NCBI GenBank assembly: GCA_021777555.1
Contig: JAJYDK010000008.1
Coordinates: 48,131-112,130 of the forward strand
DNA length: 64,000 nt
From: Pseudomonadota bacterium
Lineage (GTDB): Bacteria > Pseudomonadota > Gammaproteobacteria > Steroidobacterales > Steroidobacteraceae
Direction of reading: 5' to 3'
Shown: one piece after another, positions 50,579-63,783 of the stretch
How positions within the stretch are numbered: position 1 is the stretch's first letter
Layout: every line of letters starts with the position of its first letter
Notes under the pieces: generated by a model
What the model was told of the DNA's origin: nothing
Databases searched by the model: none
The model's input: only the letters and a program-made list of their open reading frames with translations
Made by a program: the position numbers and the translations under genes

Positions 50579-50669
50579 GGAGAGATGGCCGAGTGGTCGA
50601 AGGCGCACCCCTGCTAAGGGTGTAAGGGTCAAAAGCCCTTCGAGGGTTCGAATCCCTCTCTCTCCGCCA
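50579..50669 (+). tRNA. tRNA-Ser (anticodon GCU), encoded CCA
   Basis: GGAGAGATGGCCGAGTGG...CTGCTAA...GGTTCGAATCC...CTCTCTCCGCCA; type II tRNA with long variable arm. Confidence 0.95.
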
Positions 50670-50831
50670 ATCACGCGTCTCAAGCCGTCTCACACGGGCT
50701 CAAAAATAAAAAACTCCCATAAAATCAGGGAGATTGGTTTCTCAAGAGGTCTCACCCGGATTCTTGCTGTCTCGGCCCCGTGCGGGTACATTTGCGGGTA
50801 TCGGTTCTGAAGGACTCTCAGATACCAACGG

Positions 50832-52019
50832 ATGCTCACCGATTCCGCAATCCGGAGTGCGAAACGCGCCGAGCGCCCCCGCAAGCTCAGCGACGGCGGT
50901 GGCCTCTACCTGCTCATAGCGCCCAATGGCGGCCGCTACTGGCGCTTCAACTACCGCTTCGCCGCCAAGCAGAAGACCCTGGCCTTGGGCGTCTATCCCG
51001 ACGTGGGTCTCGCCAAGGCACGGGAACGACATCAGGAGGCCCGGCGGCTTCTGGCGGACGACATCGATCCGAGCGCCGAGCGAAAGACGACCAGCAAGAC
51101 GTTCGAGGAAGTGGCGCGAGCGTGGCACGCACACTGGAAGTCTAATCGCCACGAACGCCATGCCCATTACGTCTTGAAGCGCCTCGAGGCGGACGTCTTC
51201 CCTGAGATCGGATCGCGGCGCCTCGGGGAGATCCCGACCTCGGCGTTTCGCGATGTCGCGCGCAAGATCGAACAGCGCGGCGCCGCGGATATCGCCAAGC
51301 GGGTGTTGCAGACCTGCGGCCAGATCATGCGCTACGCGATGGCCAATGACCTCGCGACGCACAATCCCGTCGCCGGCATCAAGCCCGGCGACGTGCTGAA
51401 ACCGCGCACGCGGCGCAACTATCCGCGCATCGACCAGAACGAGCTCCCAAAGCTGTTGAAGGCCATCGACGCCTATGTGGGCGCCGACCACACACGCCTC
51501 GCGCTGCAGCTCATGGCGCTGACCTTCGTGCGCACCTCGGAATTGATCGGCGCTCGATGGTCGGAATTCGACACGACGGCGGCAAGATGGACCATCCCTG
51601 CCGAGCGCATGAAGATGAAGACCCCACACATCGTGCCGCTCAGTCGCCAGGCACTCGCTGTGCTGCAGCAGTTGCGCGAGCTGTCATTCGACCGCGAGCT
51701 GGTCTTCCCGGGCGACGTGCAGCCAACCAAGCCGATGAGCAACAACACGCTGCTGTTCGCCCTGTATCGGATGGGCTATCGCGGGCGCATGACCGGACAC
51801 GGCTTTCGCGGCGTAGCTTCGACGATCCTCCACGAGCAGGGCTGGCCGCACGACCACATCGAGTTGCAGCTCGCCCACCAGGAGCGAAACAGTGTCAGCG
51901 CAGCCTACAATCACGCCCAGTATCTTCAGCCTCGGGCTCAAATGATGCAGGCCTGGTCCGACTACCTGGACCTACGGCGCAAAGAAAAGACGGACGAGGC
52001 GCAGCAGGAAGCGGCCTGA
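50832..52019 (+). CDS. Tyrosine recombinase, P4-type integrase (DUF4102-like N-terminus)
   Basis: LSDGGGLYLLIAPNGGRYWRFNYRFAAKQKTLALGVYPDV; FVRTSELIGARW, TGHGFRGVAST, Tyr nucleophile region SAAYNHAQYL. Confidence 0.95.
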   Translation: MLTDSAIRSAKRAERPRKLSDGGGLYLLIAPNGGRYWRFNYRFAAKQKTLALGVYPDVGLAKARERHQEARRLLADDIDPSAERKTTSKTFEEVARAWHAHWKSNRHERHAHYVLKRLEADVFPEIGSRRLGEIPTSAFRDVARKIEQRGAADIAKRVLQTCGQIMRYAMANDLATHNPVAGIKPGDVLKPRTRRNYPRIDQNELPKLLKAIDAYVGADHTRLALQLMALTFVRTSELIGARWSEFDTTAARWTIPAERMKMKTPHIVPLSRQALAVLQQLRELSFDRELVFPGDVQPTKPMSNNTLLFALYRMGYRGRMTGHGFRGVASTILHEQGWPHDHIELQLAHQERNSVSAAYNHAQYLQPRAQMMQAWSDYLDLRRKEKTDEAQQEAA

Positions 52020-52032
52020 CCGCCACTGACTC

Positions 52033-52362
52033 CTAGACAGGATACTTGCGTGGCCGCCCTCGCTTCCGGGGAGGAATCTCCGGGCCGAGAGGGACACGGT
52101 AACCCTCCGGATCCATCACCCAGGTCTGCACGGCCTCTGAAGGCCAACCGCAGGCACGTCCACCGAGGTGGACCGGGGGTGGGAAACGGTGCGCGGCGAT
52201 TCGCCGATAAAGCGTCGGGCGGCTTAGTGCCGTGATGCGCACCACATCGCGGATCCGCAGGAACGCGGGTAAGGGAAGTTTCTCAGTGCTGCACTTCGAG
52301 CGCGCGACGTCGTGTCTACGCCCACATCTCGGCGTCTGAAATCCTGACTCGTCGATGGCCAT
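52033..52362 (-). CDS. AlpA family regulator / excisionase-like
   Basis: FLRIRDVVRITALSRPTLYRRIAAHRFPPPVHLGGRACGWPSEAVQTWV. Confidence 0.87.
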   Translation of the reverse strand: MAIDESGFQTPRCGRRHDVARSKCSTEKLPLPAFLRIRDVVRITALSRPTLYRRIAAHRFPPPVHLGGRACGWPSEAVQTWVMDPEGYRVPLGPEIPPRKRGRPRKYPV

Positions 52363-52578
52363 GGTGGATTCGGCTCATGTGTGGTTCCGGCCGTTCAGAG
52401 ACGAGTTGTCACTCAGGCGCCATGATGACACGGTCGCGCAAATTGGGAAAGGAGGGTATTGGTCGAAATCTCGCCGAAACGGCCTCCGCCTTCAATCCTG
52501 TCTGCCCATCCGCAGCGGTGAGGAGACACTGACGTCTGTGCCCGACCCGGAATCTGTTGCCGTAAGGCGAGGCACCCT

Positions 52579-52851
52579 CTAGCGCGAGAAGAGGCGAATC
52601 AGCAGGTGATAGATCATCAATAGAACAACGGCGCCGACCGAGGCCGCCATCATGCCCCAGAACGGAAAGTGGGGGAGGTCACCGCTGCCTTTCAGGACCA
52701 GAGCGGACATCATGCCCAGAAAGCCGGCCGCCGACAAAATGAGACTCACGAACGGCTCGAAAACCAGAAGCACTGCGAGCGCCGGCAATCGGATGATCTG
52801 CCAGACCAGCCAAATAGCACTCCGACACAGAGTTCGTGCGCGGTAGATCAT
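52579..52851 (-). CDS. Small two-TM membrane protein of unknown function
   Basis: Hydrophobic segments LALVLLVFEPFVSLILSAAGFLGMM-type and MMAASVGAVVLLMIYHLLI. Confidence 0.55.
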   Translation of the reverse strand: MIYRARTLCRSAIWLVWQIIRLPALAVLLVFEPFVSLILSAAGFLGMMSALVLKGSGDLPHFPFWGMMAASVGAVVLLMIYHLLIRLFSR

Positions 52852-52950
52852 GGACAGCGGTGATTTGCCGATGGGCGTCCAGGCCAGCCGTGGGGTGAAC
52901 GATGGTAGAACGCAGTTGACGCAGCTCCAGCCGGGTCTCTGCGCTATGCA

Positions 52951-53328
52951 TCACTCTGGAGAGGGAAATCCTCCGTGAGTTGTCCGTTCCTCCGCCGGCA
53001 GCAACCCGATTCTTTGCAGTCGTGCCTCGACCGCGCGCAACGTGCGGCGGTGATTTCGCGCGATGAATTCCGCAGACTCGCCGGCCTTGAACGCCTGGAC
53101 CAATCTGCGTTCTTCGTCAGTGGTCCACGGTTGCCCTACATTGTCGGGCAGCAAAGCGCGCCGTTGAACACGTGCCGCCGCCCGCTCGAGAGCCGTGACG
53201 GCGGTGAGCAGCGCACGCAGTACATCTACACGATGCACCACCGACCCCGCCGGCAGCTTCTCCGCCGATCCAGGCTCGCGGCCTTCGATCAGAGACTTCA
53301 GAACCAGCATCGCCTCAAAGTTGTCCAT
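52951..53328 (-). CDS. Hypothetical protein with C-terminal Myb/SANT-like helical segment
   Basis: PWTTDEERRLVQAFKAGESAEFIARNHRRTLRAVEARLQRIGLL. Confidence 0.62.
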   Translation of the reverse strand: MDNFEAMLVLKSLIEGREPGSAEKLPAGSVVHRVDVLRALLTAVTALERAAARVQRRALLPDNVGQPWTTDEERRLVQAFKAGESAEFIARNHRRTLRAVEARLQRIGLLPAEERTTHGGFPSPE

Positions 53329-53470
53329 AGGTATGCTCCAGATGGCGAGAATGCGTAACGGCCGGCGCCGTGCTCGTACCCAGGACCAAAGCCGCCTGCA
53401 AATGCGCACTGCGGTCGATCCACCCTGAATCCGGCGCCTCCGTGCCCGCACCGATGGCCTTTGCTCAGAG

Positions 53471-53547
53471 TGATACGAAAATCGTATCGACTCGGCTGCA
53501 CCATACGCTGATACGAATTTCGTATCAATAGGGGTGATACGGTATTA
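53471..53547. promoter_or_regulatory. Operator cluster: two palindromes plus a variant site
   Basis: TGATACGAAAATCGTATCG (53471-53489), TGATACGAATTTCGTATCA (53509-53527), TGATACGGTATTA (53535-53547). Confidence 0.82.
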
Positions 53548-53578
53548 GGAGCACCTCAGCCAATGACCCTGGGGTGCC

Positions 53579-53806
53579 ATGAAGTATTCCGCTCGCCAGC
53601 GTGCCGTCGCCGCCGCCCTAAGAAAAGCACGCGAGGCGGCCGGCCTTTCCCAGCGCCAGCTTTCCGAGAGGCTCAAGCAGCCGCCGAACTGGATCCAGCG
53701 GATCGAGTCTCTGGAACGGAGGGTGGATGTGGCGGAGTTCATCACCATCGCCAAGGCTGTCGGGGCAGACCCCGCTGAACTCTTTCGGGAGGCGCTGAGC
53801 GGCTGA
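53579..53806 (+). CDS. XRE-family HTH regulator
   Basis: LRKAREAAGLSQRQLSERLKQPPNWIQRIESLERRVDVAEFITIAKAVGAD. Confidence 0.87.
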   Translation: MKYSARQRAVAAALRKAREAAGLSQRQLSERLKQPPNWIQRIESLERRVDVAEFITIAKAVGADPAELFREALSG

Positions 53807-54232
53807 TCGTCCCCGGGCGCATGTCGTGTGGGAGAGATGCTCTGCAGGGGCCTGGTAGGGGAATACAGGCGCCCTGGACGTGAAGATCCGAGACGGAGGG
53901 GCTGGACCGGCACGTGTGGCCCCCGAACTGCCAGGCGGCTCGTGAGCGGAGCGTCGGGCGGCGGTGCGATTGGCGGGCATCCCGTGAGCGGTGGCGATCA
54001 AAGGGCCGGGTGACCGGTCAAGGGCATCGCGGCCGAACTACCGGAACTTCCGCAATGAGATTCGGCGGAGCTATGCCTTGTCCGGCTGGTGGCCCTGGGA
54101 TTGACGCGCCGGCGGCAGTTTTTCAATAGGTCCTCGGCCGGCAGCCGCAGCTCCCAGGTTGCGCAATATCGACCGAATTATCGGTGAAATGCAGGATAGC
54201 TTTACAGCGAGTTTTGTCTAACATTGTGAGCT

Positions 54233-54817
54233 GTGGGTGCAACAGAAATTCTGGCGACACGAGTAACACCTGATGTCAAGGCGCGGGTGACTGATGTCGT
54301 TCGCGAGGAGTTTTTGAGGGAGTCGATATGGCTTCGGCGCTTGGTTTTACGCGAACTCCAGGCAATTTCGTCACAGGGCTCGACACCGCGACAATGCGAT
54401 AACGGATCCACAGCGGTCCGTGGGCGATGCTCCAGGCGCCGTGAGCCGATTTCGGGCCTGTACGTTCGAATGCGCAGGGAGGACCGGCTGCTGCTGCACG
54501 AGCGAGCGGCGGCGCGGGGAATGGCCTCGGCTACGTACGCGTCAGTGCTCGTCCGAGCCCACCTGCGATTCCTGGCACCGCTGCCGAAGGACGAGCTGGT
54601 CACCCTGAAGCAGGTCGTGAGCGAGCTGAGTGCGATTGGGAGCAACCTCAATCAGATCGCCCGCGCAGTGAGCAGCGGCGCTCGCATCGCGGGTGTCGGC
54701 CATGAAGAGTTCCGGGCCATCCTCAAGATCTGCGAAGCGCTGCGTGACCATACCAAGAGCCTGATCAAGGCGAACGCGGCGAGCTGGGCGTCGGGACATG
54801 CCGAAACTCAGGATTAG
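54233..54817 (+). CDS. MobC-like relaxosome accessory protein (GTG start)
   Basis: LVTLKQVVSELSAIGSNLNQIARAVSSG, MobC hallmark; overlaps the relaxase gene. Confidence 0.8.
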   Translation: MGATEILATRVTPDVKARVTDVVREEFLRESIWLRRLVLRELQAISSQGSTPRQCDNGSTAVRGRCSRRREPISGLYVRMRREDRLLLHERAAARGMASATYASVLVRAHLRFLAPLPKDELVTLKQVVSELSAIGSNLNQIARAVSSGARIAGVGHEEFRAILKICEALRDHTKSLIKANAASWASGHAETQD

Positions 54818-55799
54818 TGCCCTCGAGGGGCGCGCCTTACTAGACGTCGCGAGTTACGCTCGGCGCGGCCCTGGGCGGCGGGATCGGTTGTCGCCGCAGG
54901 AAGTGGCCCTCGTCGGTCGCACGGTGAGGCGGACACCGGAAGTTATGGTCAAGGTGCTCGCGAAGGACAGCAACAACCTGCGATCCGTAGCGCGGCATCT
55001 CAACTACATCGGCCGGTATGGCCGGCTGGCGCTCGAAACCGACGACGGCGAGCACATTCAAGGGCAGCACGCCGGTCACCGCTTAGTCGAGGACTGGGAT
55101 CTCGACCTGGATCAGGATCGGCGGGACTCAAGTCTGGCCGCTGGCACGGGACGAGCTCCGAAGCTGGTCCATAAGATTATGCTTTCCATGCCACCGGGCA
55201 CTCCAGCGAAGGGGGTATTCGAGGCGGCAGGAAATTTCGCACGGGAGGAATTTGGGCTGAAGCATCGCTATGCACTGGTTCTGCATACTGACGAACCCCA
55301 TCCCCACGTGCACCTAGTCGTGAAGGCAGTCAGTGAGCAAGGAGCACGGTTGAACATCAGGAAGGCGACTTTGCGGGAGTGGAGACGGGAATTCGCGCGG
55401 CACCTGCGCGATAAGGGCATCGCGGCAAACGCCACCGACCGCGCGGTGCGGGGAGAGAGTCGGATGCCCAAGAAGGATGGGATCTACAGGGCAGCACAGC
55501 GGGGCAATTCCACTCACTCGCGTAGCCGCGTCGAACTGGTCGCCTCCGAACTCCTCACCGGCAGCCTTCCGAACGATCCTGGAAAATCCACGCTGGCCGC
55601 GACTCGAAAGGAAGTCGAACGCGGCTGGATCGCAGTTGCTGATACATTGGCGAATCAGGGCTACGCTGGATTGGCGACAGAGATAAAGCGATTTGTTGAA
55701 CAAATGCCACCGTCGCAAACTGAAAAGGAGCAGATCGCCGCCGCTGTGCTGAAGCGAAGCCGCGAGCGGGCGCTTTCGGACCGCCCGCATGCGCGGTAA
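54798..55799 (+). CDS. HUH relaxase / mobilization nuclease
   Basis: VARHLNYIGRYGRLALE, HPHVHLVVKAVSEQGARLNIRKATLREWRREFARHLRDKGI. Confidence 0.9.
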   Translation: MPKLRISALEGRALLDVASYARRGPGRRDRLSPQEVALVGRTVRRTPEVMVKVLAKDSNNLRSVARHLNYIGRYGRLALETDDGEHIQGQHAGHRLVEDWDLDLDQDRRDSSLAAGTGRAPKLVHKIMLSMPPGTPAKGVFEAAGNFAREEFGLKHRYALVLHTDEPHPHVHLVVKAVSEQGARLNIRKATLREWRREFARHLRDKGIAANATDRAVRGESRMPKKDGIYRAAQRGNSTHSRSRVELVASELLTGSLPNDPGKSTLAATRKEVERGWIAVADTLANQGYAGLATEIKRFVEQMPPSQTEKEQIAAAVLKRSRERALSDRPHAR

Positions 55800-55817: not shown

Positions 55818-56942
55818 TTACGTAACTTGCTTCTTCCGCGGCGGTAGCTCCGGCTGGGACGATAACGGATTTGCCACTGACTCATCGGGAAGTATGTGGG
55901 GACGGTAATGAGGCCACCATGCTTGAGTCGCGGACAGGAGCAACATCCTCGCCAATCCCTGAACATTGGCGACTTCATATGGAGACAGTGACCGCGCGGT
56001 CGTTCCGATTCGGTGACCCGTCAGCTGATTTCGGATCCACCGGGCATGGTCCAGCGCATCGGGAATCAGAACCTCCACGTCACGTATGGGGCCTCCAGAC
56101 CACCGCCCGGTACGGGCGATCGCGAACGGCTTTTTGCGCTCGTGCCGCTTTTCGGGTCCTCTCCGGTACCAATACATGATTTCCCTTGGAGCCACGTGAG
56201 CAGTCGCCAGGCGTCTCGTGATGTCAGCGAGGGCGGCCGGGACCCATTTGCCATCGTTGTACTTCGCTCGAACGTCATTCTGGCCTACCTTCACCGCCCG
56301 CACCGTCAGGTCCAATTCCTCGATTGCACCGTAGGCAAGCGTGATCGCTTGCGCAAAGCGCACGTGATCGATGGCATGCCGCGATGGTCTGAAGTCCTTG
56401 GAACTGTATGTGGCCGGGTCAGTGTCCCTCCAGGCGACACTGATAAGCTTGAGCGACTCAAACAGCTTCAACAGCGCGCATTGCCAACGGCGTTTAGAGC
56501 TGCATCGTGCCAGCAATCGCATGCCGCCCTCGATACCTCCCGATTGTCGCCGTTGTCTGCGAGCGTTTCCCACGGTCTCTGCGTCTAACGGGCAACTTGG
56601 GTCGCCGTCCTTTCGTGGTGCAGCTAGCGGCGAAATGTCCGGAGTAAGCCCCAAAATTGTTTCGAAGTGCATCCCGTCATAGACGCTGTGGGCTGCCCAG
56701 AGCATGTACGCCAGAGCTTGCGCGTGCTCCCAATCCTTCGCCCTTACCAGGACGTCGTATTCTCTCCACTTTCGCGGAGAGGGAGATCCGCCCGGCGGCA
56801 ACCGGAGTTTGTGAAGGTCGAGACACTGTGCCACCTCAATCTCGAACCCGCGGGCGCGGAAGATGCCGCCCGACGGAAGCGGGGGAGCGGGGTTAGATAT
56901 CTGCCAGCCGATCGAGTACTCGCGCAGTCGCGGGCGACTCAA
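55818..56942 (-). CDS. Uncharacterised protein, partner of the DUF4209-like protein; HEPN-like Rx5H motif
   Basis: Start overlaps the stop of 56939..58750 (4 nt); DALDHARWIRNQLTGHRI. Confidence 0.7.
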   Translation of the reverse strand: MSRPRLREYSIGWQISNPAPPLPSGGIFRARGFEIEVAQCLDLHKLRLPPGGSPSPRKWREYDVLVRAKDWEHAQALAYMLWAAHSVYDGMHFETILGLTPDISPLAAPRKDGDPSCPLDAETVGNARRQRRQSGGIEGGMRLLARCSSKRRWQCALLKLFESLKLISVAWRDTDPATYSSKDFRPSRHAIDHVRFAQAITLAYGAIEELDLTVRAVKVGQNDVRAKYNDGKWVPAALADITRRLATAHVAPREIMYWYRRGPEKRHERKKPFAIARTGRWSGGPIRDVEVLIPDALDHARWIRNQLTGHRIGTTARSLSPYEVANVQGLARMLLLSATQAWWPHYRPHILPDESVANPLSSQPELPPRKKQVT

Positions 56943-58750
56943 TTCGCGCCTCCATTTGGCGCAGCCCGAAAGGTCCCGATCAGGATCACTGAGTGCACGA
57001 CTGTGTTCGCCAGCCCCAGACCGAAGAGTTCGTAGGCCGCAATGCCGTGCGCGATCTCGTTGCGCACGTTGAGACCGCGTGGATCTTGATACAACACCTG
57101 GAAGTGAAACCGGATGTAGTCGGGTACTTTTCCCCTAAATATCTCGTGGCTGAGAACGTCTCCTAGGGAGATCATCTGGACTCCACCCGAGACGGGGTGT
57201 GGCTTCGATATTGTGCCGCCAAGCGCGGCCAGGACATCCCGTAGGGCCGACTCGACCTGTGGTACGAGGATATGAATGGCCTTGACGGCATCGCCGGCAA
57301 ACCAGGCTGCGAGTCCTTCCCGCACGAAGCGCAGCCGAGCGGGGGGGAAAAACGGAGACTGCGAGAGCCATTCGAGCAGGCGCTCGAGATCGACTGCGTG
57401 CTTCTCCTGAAGGCGCTTCCATGCCACGTTGAGGAAAGGCGGTTTCTGCGACAAGAGTTGCGCCGCATGGTGCACCGTGCGTCCGTCGAGGTCGTCCTTG
57501 ACGGAGCCGATCGTTGCCTTGGTGAAGCCCTCAGGCCCGGTGATGGCGATCGGTATATGGGCGCTGAGCGGCGACTGCGCTGCGATCTCGAGCACGGCGC
57601 GCTCGCTTGAGTCCCGCTTGACGAGGCCGCACGCTGCAAACCCCACCATTCCTTGCTCGAGGCTCTCTCCCGCGACCTGATCAGCCCATGTAGCAAGTTT
57701 CTCAGGGTCCACCTCAAGAGGGACCGAAATCCGCTTCATTTCGGATTGGGCATCCTTGGCGCGGTCTCTGATTGCCTGCTCGACTCGAGCAACGCCTGCC
57801 TGCTCCCCCATTTGTTGGTAGCGCGCCGCCTGCTCGCTCAGCCAAAAAATCGCCGTGAGTCCCGAAGCCTTGGCTGCGGCCGCTTCAAACGCTGCACCGG
57901 CGGTGAGAGCTGCCCGACGGGCCTCCTGCCTTTCACCGGCGAATTCGCGCCACGGACGGAGGCAGTCCGCCGCGGTGCGCGCCAGATGCGGTTCGAAGAG
58001 CTTCGGGTCAGCGATATTGGAGCGGATTGTGAGCTGGTGCTCCAGTGCCTGCACGATCACCCCTCTTTCCTCATCGGAGAGGACGAGGGCCCGGGCGTGG
58101 CTCCATGCAATCTCATGGAAAAGCCAGAACGGATACGGACCCCGTGCCTCGCACTGCGCCCGGAATCGAAAGAGAACCGCCTTCGCGTGCTGCGCGCGCG
58201 CCGGGTCGTTTATCGAAACCGCGAGCTCGAGCGCACGCTCGATGTAGAACCAGGCGTACAGGTCTTCGGTCGTGAGACTTCCCTCGACTGCCTCGAGATA
58301 CCCATCGACGGCAATGCGCGCCTGGGCGACATCTGGCCGGCGCATCAGCTCATTTTTGCGAAAACTGGCGATTTCCCAGGCGAGGTCCGCGTAGCGCGCC
58401 CTCAACAGCGGGTGTCTCGCCTTGACGGCTCGGTCAGACCACGCTTGGATCACCTCGCCGTCTGCCTCGGTGACCTCCGGTGAGTGATGCTCTCTTCCGG
58501 CCTTATCGGTGACGCTGCTCACAGGCTGCCAGTGCATCTGCCAGACCGGGCCCCCAGAGAGTCGCGGGTGCTGGAAATTCAAAGCTTCGACGAGGGCGAA
58601 GTTGCCCTTGTGCTGAGCGGCTGTGAGCTCTCCGAGACCTACCATGACCGGTACAAGACGACCACGCACGACAAGTTCGTCTAGCCGCTGGTCGGCCTTG
58701 TCCGCCTCTTGGAAGGCCGACTCCAATGCTGGGTGAATCTCCAGGACCAT
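56939..58750 (-). CDS. DUF4209-like large helical protein with C-terminal HEPN-like Rx4H motif
   Basis: C-terminal YQDPRGLNVRNEIAHGIAAYELFGLGLANTVVHSVILIG; helical N-terminal region RARYADLAWEIASFRK. Confidence 0.75.
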   Translation of the reverse strand: MVLEIHPALESAFQEADKADQRLDELVVRGRLVPVMVGLGELTAAQHKGNFALVEALNFQHPRLSGGPVWQMHWQPVSSVTDKAGREHHSPEVTEADGEVIQAWSDRAVKARHPLLRARYADLAWEIASFRKNELMRRPDVAQARIAVDGYLEAVEGSLTTEDLYAWFYIERALELAVSINDPARAQHAKAVLFRFRAQCEARGPYPFWLFHEIAWSHARALVLSDEERGVIVQALEHQLTIRSNIADPKLFEPHLARTAADCLRPWREFAGERQEARRAALTAGAAFEAAAAKASGLTAIFWLSEQAARYQQMGEQAGVARVEQAIRDRAKDAQSEMKRISVPLEVDPEKLATWADQVAGESLEQGMVGFAACGLVKRDSSERAVLEIAAQSPLSAHIPIAITGPEGFTKATIGSVKDDLDGRTVHHAAQLLSQKPPFLNVAWKRLQEKHAVDLERLLEWLSQSPFFPPARLRFVREGLAAWFAGDAVKAIHILVPQVESALRDVLAALGGTISKPHPVSGGVQMISLGDVLSHEIFRGKVPDYIRFHFQVLYQDPRGLNVRNEIAHGIAAYELFGLGLANTVVHSVILIGTFRAAPNGGAN

Positions 58751-58884: not shown

Positions 58885-59346
58885 TCATCGCACTTCTCTC
58901 GACCACCATTCCTTGATCTTCGTAAGGAGGCTTCGGGCTTTAGGCGTCGATACCGGTCTGGCCGCAGGCGAGGGCGACGGCGAGCGCTCCCTTGACGTCT
59001 GGGTATCGTAGTAGTCCTGCTTTGCCTGGCGATCGCGCGCGAACCCTGCCTCGATCATTTCTCTCGACCATCGGCCCCCCCAGTGTACCCGGTTGCCGGA
59101 GATCACGTAGTGGGATCTACAGTCCAAGTTCCAATTGCCAACCGATGGGGAGATCGATACGGTTTTGCCGTCGTAGGTGAGCTGCCAGCCGGTGGGCGAG
59201 ATCGGCGTGACGACCTTCTTGCCACATCCGCAGCAACATAGATGCGCCATGGTCTTATATTGAACCGAGATGTACAGGACCCCTGGCTCGAGTCGCTCGG
59301 GCACGAACTCCACAAACTCGTAGCTGATCTCATGGAGCCTCGACAT
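58885..59346 (-). CDS. DUF6527-like Cys-rich protein of a ubiquitin-like operon
   Basis: MAHLCCCGCGKKVVTPISPTGWQLTYDGKTVSISPSVGNWNLDCRSHYVISGNRVHW; ATGA overlap with the E1 gene. Confidence 0.82.
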   Translation of the reverse strand: MSRLHEISYEFVEFVPERLEPGVLYISVQYKTMAHLCCCGCGKKVVTPISPTGWQLTYDGKTVSISPSVGNWNLDCRSHYVISGNRVHWGGRWSREMIEAGFARDRQAKQDYYDTQTSRERSPSPSPAARPVSTPKARSLLTKIKEWWSREVR

Positions 59347-60530
59347 CAGAAGTCCTCTCGCCCCATCTTGCCTGTATCGAGCACGTATGTGGTGTGGTGC
59401 TCCTGGGTAAGATCGTGATAGAAGCTGCAAAGCTTCTTCCACTTGACCACCGCGAGCGCAGCATTGAATGCGTTGAGCTCCGCCACTTGAATGTTGCGCG
59501 AGTAGTCGTTGGGGCCGAGTGCCGGGGCAAATGAGACGCGATGATTGTCGCGCACGTGGTCACGTTTTCTCGGCGTGCTGGTAGTCGCCCGTAGAATGCC
59601 GCTCAGAGCGGCATCTCGTATCTGAAGGCCCATACCCACATCGATAAACGGGATGTTCGCATCCTCTAATGTGCGCATGATCGGGTCCTTGAGCTCGCCG
59701 CTATCAAGACACAGAAATACAAACTGCATCTGACGCAGTTCGTCCATATTGGCAATGTCGATCCGGTAGGAATGAGGGACGACGCCATTGCGGAGCTTGG
59801 AGTAGAGGGCGCTGTAGTACTGAACCTTCTTCATTTCAGGCTTCAGCTCTTCGATGCCGAGCGCACCGGGGCAGCGGAAGGCGTTGTGTTGGCTGAACTC
59901 ATCATCATCGAAGAGGTGGATCTCGCGAACAGGTGTCTTGGCAACGAAGTCGAGCACGTAGGATCCAGTGCCGCCGAGGCCGACGATGGCGATCTTCGCC
60001 ATAGCGAGCTTAGGCGAAAGGGCATCTATCCCCGCGCGGCTCGAGGATGTGTCGTAGTAATTGAACGGCGATTCGTCTTCGGAGTCCGTCGGGATAACGG
60101 GAAACACGCACGCTGTGACACCCGCCTCGATGGCTTGCGCCTCGTGCATTAGGATCTTCGCGTAGGTCGTCATCTTCGCGTAGTAATCTGGGTATCCTTT
60201 CCCATCCCGCGGCTTAGTGGAAAAGAGGAAATTGACGTCCACACCAGTTGCAGGCGTCTTACGTTCCTCGCTGTGGATGATCGCGAGGGGGGTTCCGTTC
60301 TTGTCGCATGGACGCTCTCCTGCGAACGAGACTGTGTGCTCGTCGGGCTTCTTGAGATCGTTCTGGGCAAACTCGAGCGTCGAGACCAGAGTCCCGCGCT
60401 TTACTTCCTTGTTGCCGTTCACGTAGGGAACGCTCTTCAGCACCAGGTGGGTGCCTACCACCTGCAGCTCGAAGCCCTCATCCCGTAGCCGCTTAAGGTC
60501 GGGGCTACGATCGACCAGTTTCTGTGACAA
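59346..60530 (-). CDS. ThiF/E1-like adenylyltransferase with N-terminal DUF6791-like (possible E2-like) domain; TTG start
   Basis: KIAIVGLGGTGSYVLDFVAKTPVREIHLFDDDEFSQHNAFRCPGA E1 motif; FVFLCLDSGELKDPIM; ~165-aa N-terminal domain. Confidence 0.9.
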   Translation of the reverse strand: MSQKLVDRSPDLKRLRDEGFELQVVGTHLVLKSVPYVNGNKEVKRGTLVSTLEFAQNDLKKPDEHTVSFAGERPCDKNGTPLAIIHSEERKTPATGVDVNFLFSTKPRDGKGYPDYYAKMTTYAKILMHEAQAIEAGVTACVFPVIPTDSEDESPFNYYDTSSSRAGIDALSPKLAMAKIAIVGLGGTGSYVLDFVAKTPVREIHLFDDDEFSQHNAFRCPGALGIEELKPEMKKVQYYSALYSKLRNGVVPHSYRIDIANMDELRQMQFVFLCLDSGELKDPIMRTLEDANIPFIDVGMGLQIRDAALSGILRATTSTPRKRDHVRDNHRVSFAPALGPNDYSRNIQVAELNAFNAALAVVKWKKLCSFYHDLTQEHHTTYVLDTGKMGREDF

Positions 60531-60969
60531 CGAAGATCATCCCGTTCTTGACGTAGACCGAACGCCCCACGGTGAGCGAGCCCTCGCGGTTTCGGTGCGG
60601 GCCACGCTCGTATTCGACGGTGTAAGTAATGATCACCCCGGGCGGGGGCGGCTCCGGGTAAGCCAAGTGAGTGACTTGCTCGTAGGAGATGGTTGTCTGC
60701 GCCCAGGGCTTCTTCTGCGCGTTGACGATCAGGAAGATATCCTTCTCGCAGTAGAAGTGCTCGTCCTCGTGAAGCCGGATTGCACCAGCGTCCCGCGGAA
60801 CCGGCTCATCCTCTCGGTCGCCCCCGACCTCCCGAAAGAGCTCGCGATGCTGGGGGATTCCTGCCAGTGCGTAGAGCTGCGCGGCGGTGGTCGAAGAAGG
60901 TGAAGCGAACGGCTTGCGGTCGATGTGGATCCGAACCTGGGTGTTCGGCGCGTCGTCATGGCTAGTCAT
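60505..60969 (-). CDS. Tandem ubiquitin-like (multiubiquitin family) protein
   Basis: Two related segments: VRIHIDRKPFASPSSTTAAQLYALAGIP... and IFLIVNAQKKPWAQTTISYEQVTHLAYPEPPPPGVIITYTVEY...; upstream of the E1 gene. Confidence 0.85.
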   Translation of the reverse strand: MTSHDDAPNTQVRIHIDRKPFASPSSTTAAQLYALAGIPQHRELFREVGGDREDEPVPRDAGAIRLHEDEHFYCEKDIFLIVNAQKKPWAQTTISYEQVTHLAYPEPPPPGVIITYTVEYERGPHRNREGSLTVGRSVYVKNGMIFVVTETGRS

Positions 60970-60997: not shown

Positions 60998-61087
60998 AAT
61001 GTCAATCACACTAACCTGTTCCTACAATTGGCATAGCCTAGCCGAGATCACGGTGGTTTTCAATAACCTGTTAGTGACGTTGACATT
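60998..61087. promoter_or_regulatory. Divergent promoter/operator region between Ubl and XRE-DarTG operons
   Basis: AATGTCAATCACACTAAC (60998-61015) and GTTAGTGACGTTGACATT (61070-61087), 15/18 inverted match; TTGACA in each outward orientation; TAGATT 17 nt downstream on plus. Confidence 0.72.
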
Positions 61088-61135: not shown

Positions 61136-61480
61136 ATGCTGGACAGCGACAAGCTGTATGAACTGATCGGTGATCGAATTCGCCAGATACGCGAGGCCCA
61201 GACGCCCCGCATGAGCCAGGGCGATCTCGCACGGATTCTTGGCCTACAGCGCACCTCCGTAACCAACATCGAGCGGGGCAAGCAGAAGCCCACGCTCGAC
61301 ACCCTGCTCCGTCTATGCGAGCACTTCGCACTCGAGATTGACGCACTCGTTCCCAAGTTGCGGGAAGTCTCAGTCATCGACGCACGTTCCGTGGTCGTCG
61401 GTGGTAAGAGGCAGGAGGTGGGTGCAAAAACCGCTAGTTTATTGAGCAGCTTGCGCCCGGGCGCACGCGCGCGAGGGTAG
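61136..61480 (+). CDS. XRE-family HTH regulator
   Basis: RIRQIREAQTPRMSQGDLARILGLQRTSVTNIERGKQKPTLDTLLRLCEHF. Confidence 0.92.
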   Translation: MLDSDKLYELIGDRIRQIREAQTPRMSQGDLARILGLQRTSVTNIERGKQKPTLDTLLRLCEHFALEIDALVPKLREVSVIDARSVVVGGKRQEVGAKTASLLSSLRPGARARG

Positions 61481-61502: not shown

Positions 61503-62030
61503 ATGAGAAACCGATACGCCAAGGCCATAGATCAAAAAGCAACCGAGCTGCTGCGCGAACTCGATCTGTTGACCGTTCCCGTTAACGTGGAGGAGGTGGC
61601 GCAGAAGCTTGGCGCGGAACTCGTGTATGGCGATCTTGAAGACGATATGTCTGGATTTCTGCTGCGCGAAAAGGGAGTCGTGACCATTGCCGTTAACAAG
61701 CTGCATCATCCGAATCGCCAGCGGTTTACGATTGCCCACGAGTGTGGGCACCTTCACTTGCACGGCGAACAAGGCGATCGTCTCTGGGTGGACAAAGCTT
61801 ATTCTACGATCTTCTATCGCGACGCCAGCTCGAGTAGCGGCGATAAGCTCGCGGAAATTCAAGCTAATCAGTTTGCTGCTGGTTTGTTGATGCCCGAAGC
61901 GCTTCTGACGGAGCAACTACCTCCTGAGCTTAGCGACGTCGATATATTTCGTTTGGCGCTACGCTTTCAGGTCAGTGAACAGGCCATGACTTTACGCTTG
62001 GTTTCGCTCGGCGTGCTCACCGAGTCCTAG
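61503..62030 (+). CDS. ImmA/IrrE family metallopeptidase
   Basis: RQRFTIAHECGHLHLHG HExxH motif; EIQANQFAAGLLMPEALL. Confidence 0.93.
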   Translation: MRNRYAKAIDQKATELLRELDLLTVPVNVEEVAQKLGAELVYGDLEDDMSGFLLREKGVVTIAVNKLHHPNRQRFTIAHECGHLHLHGEQGDRLWVDKAYSTIFYRDASSSSGDKLAEIQANQFAAGLLMPEALLTEQLPPELSDVDIFRLALRFQVSEQAMTLRLVSLGVLTES

Positions 62031-62065: not shown

Positions 62066-62710
62066 GTGTCCACCAATCTGAACGCCGAGAAGGCACTAAT
62101 ATTTCGCATCGTGCATCGCGACAATGTTTCATGGATGTTAGATCACGGCGTGCATTGTGGGAGTTCTCAAGCGCGCGATCCAAACTACGTCACAATCGGC
62201 AACTTGGAGTTAATCGCCAAGCGCACGAGTCGGAGTGTTCCTATTCACCCGCACGGAACCTTAGAAGACTATGTGCCGTTCTACTTCACGCCCTACTCGC
62301 CAATGTTGTACAACATCAAAACGGGCTACAACGGCATCACTCCCAGGCCGAATGAGCAAATCGTGATTCTGGTGTCGTCATTGCATCGCCTGAATCAGCT
62401 AAAGGTGCCATTTGTGTTCTCGGATCGGCACGCATTCCTTAAGACCGCCCGCTTTTCTTCTGAGCTCGCTGAGCTTGATCGCATAGACTGGAAGATACTT
62501 CAAGAGAGAGATTTCAAGCGTGACCCGAACGACTTGGAAAAGATGGACCGCTATCAGGCGGAAGCGCTGGTGCATCAGCGTGTACCGGTCGAGGCGCTTG
62601 TTGGAGCGGTTTGCTATAACCAGGCATCCGGTACTCAGTTAGAGACGGCTATCAAGCAGCGCCACATCAATCTTCGCGTCCTTGTGCAGCCGAAGTGGTA
62701 CTTCTCATGA
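62066..62710 (+). CDS. darT: DarT, DNA thymidine ADP-ribosyltransferase toxin (GTG start)
   Basis: [42 protein letters not shown] (catalytic Glu region). Confidence 0.9.
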
Positions 62711-63783
62711 TTTCTTACAAGCAAGGAAATTTGCTCGAGTCTCGCGCTCAGGCTCTGGTGAACACGGTCAACACGGTGGGCGTCATGGGAAAGGGCATCG
62801 CTCTGATGTTCAAGGATCGCTTTAAGGAGAATTTCCGGCGCTATGCTGTGGCCTGCAAGAACGAGGAAGTGCAGATCGGCAAGATGTTCATAACCTCGGC
62901 CAATGAGCTGGATGGTCCGAAGTGGATCGTAAATTTTCCGACGAAGAGAAACTGGCGCGCCCCCTCCAAACTGGAATGGATCACTGAGGGCCTTGAAGAT
63001 CTTCGCCGTTTTATTGTCCGTGAGCACGTGGCATCGATCGCGATCCCGCCGCTCGGTGCCGGAAATGGGGGGCTTAACTGGCCGGATGTGAAAGCCGAGA
63101 TCGAACGTGTACTTGGGGACTTGACCGATGTCGCGATCGAGGTCTTTGAGCCGACAAAGCAATATCAAAACGTCGCAAAGCGAATGGGTGTGGAGAAGCT
63201 TACCCCAGCACGGGCTCTCATCGCCGAGATCGTGCGGCGCTACGAAGTTCTGGGTATGGAGTGCACGCTACTCGAAGTGCAGAAGCTAGCGTGGTTTCTC
63301 GAGCGAGCGCTGCAGCGATTCTCGACTGATAACCCGATGGATCTTCGCTTCAAAGCGCATTACTACGGACCCTATGCCGACCGGCTTCGCCACCTGCTGG
63401 AAGGTTTGGATGGCAGTTACCTACATTGTGACAAGCGGTTGAGTGATGCTGATCCTCTTGACACAATTCGGTTCGATGACAGTCGCAAGGACTACCTGGC
63501 TGCGTATCTTAAGAGCTCCGAATTTCGGCCGTATCGGCCTGCGCTCGATTTCGCGATCCAGCTCATCGATGGGTTCGAGTCGCCGTACGGTATGGAGCTT
63601 CTATCCACCGTCGATTGGCTCTTGCAGCGAGAAGGATGCGAACCGACTGTGATGAGTATTCAAGAGGGACTTCGGAGATGGCCAGCCTCGGAGTCGAACG
63701 CTGCCCAACGGAAGTCAGAGCTCTTCGATGAGCGCACCATTGGCATCGCGCTCGATCGACTCACGCACGAGCTAGCCTCGTAA
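62707..63783 (+). CDS. darG: DarG, macrodomain ADP-ribosylglycohydrolase antitoxin
   Basis: [53 protein letters not shown] overlap with darT. Confidence 0.93.

Follow-up and report, generated by a model that had tools for sequence, protein, structure and literature searches.

In its textbook form, ubiquitin-type conjugation is a relay of cysteine thioesters passed from E1 to E2. Type 6e polyUbl operons were predicted in bacteria by comparative genomics (Iyer, Burroughs and Aravind 2006, PMC1779556), and row 6e of that paper comprises a polyUbl (a multi-domain ubiquitin-like protein, Ubl), an E1, an E2-like domain described as inactive, and a protein Y that binds metal. According to the same paper, the type 6e E1 is usually fused to JAB, with an unrelated “domain X” instead in some bacteria. 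For the Bub operons (BubA, BubB, BubCD, and BubE; Citrobacter 9ea4-9eav), the excerpted descriptions give a JAB domain on the E1 (BubCD), an E2-like BubB, CapH/CapP-type regulators and, in JAB-type loci, a DUF6527 protein. CapW or CapH plus CapP is present in 219 of 544 Bub operons, for which phage defense was not demonstrated (PMC13373217). Bil and CBASS Cap2/Cap3 are further cases of bacterial E1-driven conjugation, found in defense settings, and use an E2 (or E2-E1) with a catalytic cysteine together with a JAB enzyme.

The operon described here lies in a 64-kb stretch of Steroidobacteraceae DNA, which was analyzed whole and is referred to as the window. It is typical of the domain-X subset of type 6e, with the same genes (Ubl, domain-X E1, and protein Y) and no essential difference; the first-pass annotation had recognized a multiubiquitin/E1 operon of a kind predicted by comparative genomics, and this is the kind predicted in 2006. 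Judged by sequence, it is also a sister of the Bub operons, with which it shares a homologous multi-domain Ubl and E1 domain, the CapH/CapP-type regulators, and the DUF6527 protein, but its E1 carries domain X and no JAB, and an E2-like BubB is missing. It resembles Bil and CBASS Cap2/Cap3 but has neither their E2 with a catalytic cysteine, separate in Bil, nor their JAB peptidase.

Gene content and distribution of the operon

The operon and its parts are as follows.

60505..60969, minus strand: tandem ubiquitin-like protein (Ubl), 154 aa, ATG start, C terminus ...TETGRS
Residues about 12-77 of the 60505..60969 product, minus strand: Ubl domain 1 (hhalign, shuffle test)
Residues about 79-154 of the 60505..60969 product, minus strand: Ubl domain 2 (Pfam Multi_ubiq, 9cd2 match)
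60505..60530, minus strand: Ubl/E1 overlap, 26 nt, with the last Ubl residues including the invariant C-terminal Ser and the E1 start
59346..60530, minus strand: E1-like enzyme, 394 aa, TTG start, 26-nt overlap with the Ubl gene
60111..60530, minus strand: domain X (DUF6791), E1 residues 1-140; H65, S104, K106, and Y123 invariant, C75 not
59346..60030, minus strand: ThiF/E1 adenylation domain, residues about 167-394; GLGGTG, DDD, HNAFR, K235
58885..59346, minus strand: DUF6527 protein, 153 aa, ATG start

ORF calls, together with family and structure searches, returned three overlapping minus-strand genes in 58885-60969, encoding the Ubl, a DUF6791-ThiF E1, and a DUF6527 protein, exactly where the first-pass annotation had placed them. 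The ATG of the DUF6527 gene and the stop codon of the E1 gene have one base in common (TGATG). The NCBI product names are “multiubiquitin domain-containing protein,” “ThiF family adenylyltransferase,” and “DUF6527 family protein.”

Pfam assigns the C-terminal half of the Ubl to Multi_ubiq (E=1.3e-13), and this half also matches a solved structure, 9cd2, with 46 bits. The protein in that structure, the ZDHYS365 multi-ubiquitin domain protein, matches the X-type Ubl profile over its full length (E=3e-61) and has TDKS as its last residues, but it is longer, with three Ubl-like segments where the window Ubl has two. The N-terminal half stays under the Pfam threshold. A profile of three N-terminal halves matches domain 2 of the three-domain Ubls of the family (hhalign E=7e-9, probability 96%). 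Compared one sequence at a time, the scores are 14-19 bits, whereas the top score among 2000 shuffles is 6.9; by these comparisons, this half is a diverged second Ubl domain. Both beta-grasp-like segments read from the letters in the first-pass annotation were thus recovered, and with them the fold on which that reading depended. Type 6e Ubls have one to three such repeats.

No E2 or JAB gene was found inside the window operon by ORF calling and family search, and the overlapping genes leave no room for an E2-like BubB, which is absent from all X-type loci examined. In the host genome, profile searches gave no match to Prok-E2_A or Prok-E2_B and none to Prok-JAB, the latter with positive controls in the same search; a UQ_con search matched nothing anywhere and thus carries no information on the E2 content of the host. 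The first-pass observation of a version without separate E2 and without JAB therefore holds for the operon, and it describes a rule of the whole domain-X subset rather than a peculiarity of this locus.

The X-type operon was found in 38 other loci from at least six phyla, all of which encode DUF6527 and none of which has an E2 or JAB gene. Its genomes include Acidobacteria, Actinomycetota, alpha-, beta-, and gammaproteobacteria, and Anaeromyxobacter, and its plasmids those of Rhizobium, Acidiphilium, Klebsiella, Adhaeribacter, Leptolyngbya, Acinetobacter, Cytobacillus, and others. The operon occurs in 119 plasmid records, a few of which are JAB-type or partial, and the X-type form is present in three Escherichia coli chromosomes. 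In E. coli ES2 (L102:7001-9361), it sits in a chromosomal island adjoining tRNA-Leu. Among 399 Pseudomonadota genomes, and besides the genome of the window itself, DUF6527 was detected in 19 and DUF6791 in 7; several of the other DUF6527 loci have a JAB-E1, and some weak DUF6527 matches lie in unrelated contexts. No E1 relative was found in phage records; in IMG/VR, one contig (L067) has one.

The JAB-type relatives were compared with this set. BubCD aligns with the JAB-E1 proteins, and the alignment takes in the JAB motif that carries the Asp mutated in D104A. Homology also links the E1 domains of the X and JAB types (hhalign 98.5%, E=1.7e-15). Two JAB-type loci encode a Ubl with a fused E2-like domain that has a YPxxP-type motif without an equivalent catalytic Cys. 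These JAB and E2-like fusion features are absent from X-type loci.

The Ubl/E1 overlap and the Ubl C terminus

The overlap of the Ubl and E1 genes has a nearly fixed length. Of 41 starts, 38 give an overlap of 26 nt, in a sample that amounts to about 39 independent cases, given that L051 is the same locus as L024 and that L100 and L021 are perhaps close relatives. In the first 26 distinct loci, the window included, every overlap measures exactly 26 nt and every Ubl has Ser as its last residue (26/26). In 15 further loci (12 divergent plasmid loci, L017, L031, and L051), the C-terminal residue is again Ser throughout, and a start codon stands at the 26-nt position in 12; in L095-L097, the nearest E1 start lies 15 nt upstream and gives a 41-nt overlap. 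Several of the E1 starts are non-ATG (TTG or GTG). Across the X-type loci surveyed, every intact Ubl has a C-terminal Ser.

The E1 residue that shares bases with the Ser codon is one of four (Arg, Leu, His, or Pro), each with a codon that begins with C, and the third base of the Ser codon itself varies. Because the codon-sharing E1 residue changes in this way, selection looks to act on the terminal Ser of the Ubl rather than on the E1 frame. A gene that ends at an invariant serine suggests that the Ubl is made with its final, working C terminus, and a maturation protease would therefore not be needed. JAB-type Ubls with a fused E2-like domain differ in this respect. The 26-nt overlap at 38/41 starts, the Ubl that always ends in Ser, and an E1 without an invariant Cys (see below) are new here; none of the three is mentioned in the excerpted text of PMC1779556.

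E1, domain X, and DUF6527

The second gene had been read as an E1 whose nucleotide motif follows an N-terminal domain, and Pfam bears this out with DUF6791 (E=1e-50) followed by ThiF (E=4e-11). Six residues are kept in 37/37 E1 sequences: H65, S104, K106, and Y123 in domain X, and R219 and K235 in the adenylation domain. The best fold match of the modeled E1 is Citrobacter BubCD (Foldseek E=2e-8), and ThiF and MccB are also among its matches. Significant matches in a viral fold library are mostly ThiF/E1-like as well. The best of them is a “thiamine biosynthesis protein” from the Bacteroides phage crAss001, with an alignment that spans most of its length.

E1-like proteins also act in sulfur transfer and in MccB-type peptide adenylation, which counts against a conjugation model, and MccB activates a peptide C terminus other than Gly-Gly. 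With ThiF and MccB as fold neighbors of the E1, the operon could be a metabolic or peptide-adenylating system (a sulfur carrier or microcin C-like) with no protein conjugation. We consider this very unlikely, given that no rhodanese, cofactor, siderophore, or export genes adjoin the operon, that stress regulators, toxin-antitoxin genes, and mobility genes make up its neighborhood, and that the partner of the E1 is a multi-domain Ubl and not a small carrier or peptide.

The first-pass annotation had proposed that the N-terminal domain of the E1 supplies an E2-like function. If the E1 were fused to a cryptic E2-like domain, the Ubl would form a thioester on Cys75 and then be passed to lysines, and PMC1779556 states that bacterial E1s often have an N-terminal E2 domain. 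Cys75 is the sole invariant Cys of the E1 among 25 close homologues (25/25). In the model of domain X, which is confident over residues 20-130 (pLDDT mostly 80-94), it lies behind strand 4 of an alpha/beta domain, with H65 ten residues earlier. Once 12 divergent plasmid relatives are added, however, Cys75 is kept in 30/37 E1s and is otherwise His (5), Tyr (1), or Leu (1), so that no Cys is invariant among the 37 aligned sequences; Cys75 was dropped as a thioester site for this reason. Profile-profile comparison of domain X with bacterial E2 and JAB families gave no signal, in a test where the positive control, Prok-E2_A against Prok-E2_B, was itself weak but scored far better than domain X against either. 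Domain X was accordingly rejected as an E2 or JAB, and, as expected for the domain X of type 6e, it shows no similarity to JAB. A domain-X profile searched against the PDB found a chance-level match only (cystathionine beta-lyase, E=0.16), and no E2 is present among the listed fold and PDB matches of the E1, the fold search having covered the whole E1 model. The proposal of an E2-like function was not borne out, and we regard a cryptic E2 with its thioester on Cys75 as a quite improbable reading. Because the E1 has no invariant Cys (Cys75 being lost in 7/37), transfer of the Ubl probably bypasses the classical E1/E2 cysteines.

The third gene product is DUF6527 (Pfam E=7e-24). C37-x3-C41, C76-x2-H79, and P67-S68 are invariant and common to X-type and JAB-type operons. 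The two Cys/His pairs probably form a metal site, and the order C-x3-C then a Cys/His pair is that of the small metal-binding protein Y, for which the excerpted text of PMC1779556 gives H-x2-C as the second pair. The structure model is poor (pLDDT 65), and a fold search with this low-confidence model as query gave no match; NCBIfam 20.0 holds no model for DUF6527. In the same operon of E. coli ES2, the RefSeq name of the homologue is “ubiquitination-like system serine protease family protein,” and from this annotation DUF6527 is probably a serine protease. It had been suggested at first pass that this protein processes or removes the Ubl. The RefSeq name and the invariant P-Ser/His/Cys core give this some support, but C-terminal processing is unneeded for a Ubl whose gene ends at Ser. 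A processing or deconjugating role of DUF6527 is supported by these features, short of proof.

The place of domain X in the E1 allows a different division of labor, in which domain X would be a hydrolase taking the part of JAB in deconjugation and DUF6527 would have another role, e.g., substrate selection. A JAB-substitute role was speculated from position in PMC1779556. X and JAB occupy the same place in otherwise homologous E1s, and the invariant H65, S104, and K106 could make a serine-type hydrolytic site. This arrangement seems rather unlikely to us: DUF6527 is kept in JAB-type operons too, the RefSeq annotation puts the serine protease in DUF6527, and domain X, which has no relative by Pfam or PDB sequence, matched no hydrolase family or fold.

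Regulators, genomic neighborhood, and proposed pathway

The surroundings of the operon contain the following features.

61136..61480, plus strand: XRE-family repressor, CapH-like, divergent from the Ubl operon
61503..62030, plus strand: ImmA/IrrE (M78) metallopeptidase, CapP-like (PADLOC capP E=2e-35)
61069..61085, unstranded: operator-like palindrome TGTYA-N7-TRAC, overlapping the TTGACA of a promoter-like site of the XRE gene
61000..61016, unstranded: second operator-like palindrome, on the Ubl side
62066-63783: DarT/DarG, following the CapP-like gene
56939-58750, minus strand: PDC-S39 candidate defense gene (PADLOC; DUF7380 + DUF4209), downstream of the DUF6527 gene
55818-56942, minus strand: 374-aa ORF, unmatched in Pfam, NCBIfam, and PADLOC, whose start overlaps the end of the PDC-S39 gene
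50579-55799: left end of a mobile island, with tRNA-Ser (gct), integrase, and mobilization genes
50832-52019: tyrosine integrase
54233-54817: NikA/MobC-like
54798-55799: MobP1-like relaxase

An XRE repressor and a CapP-type IrrE metallopeptidase thus adjoin the operon. In the 64 kb, TGTYA-N7-TRAC occurs twice, with 0.14 matches expected, and both sites are in the 166-bp divergent promoter. The paired palindromes stand about 70 nt apart and are probably the operators of the XRE repressor; both positions are conserved in an Acidobacteria MAG (L001) that has the same regulator and DarTG flank and an E1 identity of 81%. It has been reported that ssDNA triggers the cleavage of CapH by CapP (PMC10904395). 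By analogy, the divergent CapH/CapP-like pair with two conserved operators suggests induction of the Ubl operon by DNA damage. In 2016, 70% of PF14452 proteins were found to adjoin putative XRE-COG2856 pairs, then taken as toxin-antitoxin (PMC4963859).

Genes for XRE plus ImmA/IrrE, WYL, or a UvrD-type helicase adjoin many X-type loci, the helicase being found at L006, L007, L008, L009, L011, L014, L016, and L018. The one helicase scanned, that of L006, has an N-terminal IrrE-type (M78) domain, a fusion that perhaps couples a DNA-damage sensor to the helicase.

The DarT/DarG DNA ADP-ribosylation toxin-antitoxin pair lies next to the X-type operon in four distant bacteria.

Window 62066-63783
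L001:2921-4650 (Acidobacteria MAG)
L090:7482-9140 (Bacillota plasmid)
L092:66-1783 (alphaproteobacterial plasmid)

Both a co-regulated partnership with the Ubl operon and ordinary clustering in defense islands are possible.

The PDC-S39 gene is absent from all 38 other X-type loci and was dropped as a component of the system. The Ubl operon looks like part of a mobile island; no att repeat of the tRNA-Ser 3' end is present in the window, which stops at the contig end.

On balance, we favor the reading of this locus as a ubiquitin-like modification system of the domain-X type 6e, sister of Bub, that is mobile, is probably induced by stress, and would work in five steps. (i) ssDNA arising from DNA damage would activate the CapP-like peptidase, which would cleave the XRE repressor and open the Ubl operon; DarTG would probably be de-repressed too. 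(ii) The Ubl would be produced with its final C-terminal serine exposed. (iii) The E1 domain would adenylate the carboxylate of this serine. (iv) The E1 itself would pass the Ubl to target proteins by a route that uses no cysteine of an E1 or E2; domain X (H65/S104/K106) would serve as transfer or acceptor module. (v) DUF6527, with its putative metal site and invariant serine, would remove or edit the tag. Step iv is a guess, because domain X is without a known fold relative. What the sequences show directly is the gene content with its domains, the nearly fixed overlap, the invariant terminal Ser, the lack of an invariant E1 Cys, and the conserved operators; from these we infer the induction, each catalytic step, and any defensive role of the Ubl operon. 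A more specific form of this reading, a minimal conjugation in which one enzyme both activates a Ser-ending Ubl and ligates it to targets via domain X, without E2 or a catalytic Cys (through a Ser104 oxyester or direct attack on the adenylate), is put forward tentatively.

X-type operons are widespread, and their Ubl, E1, and probable protease are retained without E2, JAB, or an invariant E1 Cys. Since a homologous three-gene operon sits in an E. coli chromosome, the question of mechanism is directly testable. If X-type operons do conjugate, they would define the minimum for ubiquitin-like tagging and the role of domain X, a question that dates from 2006.
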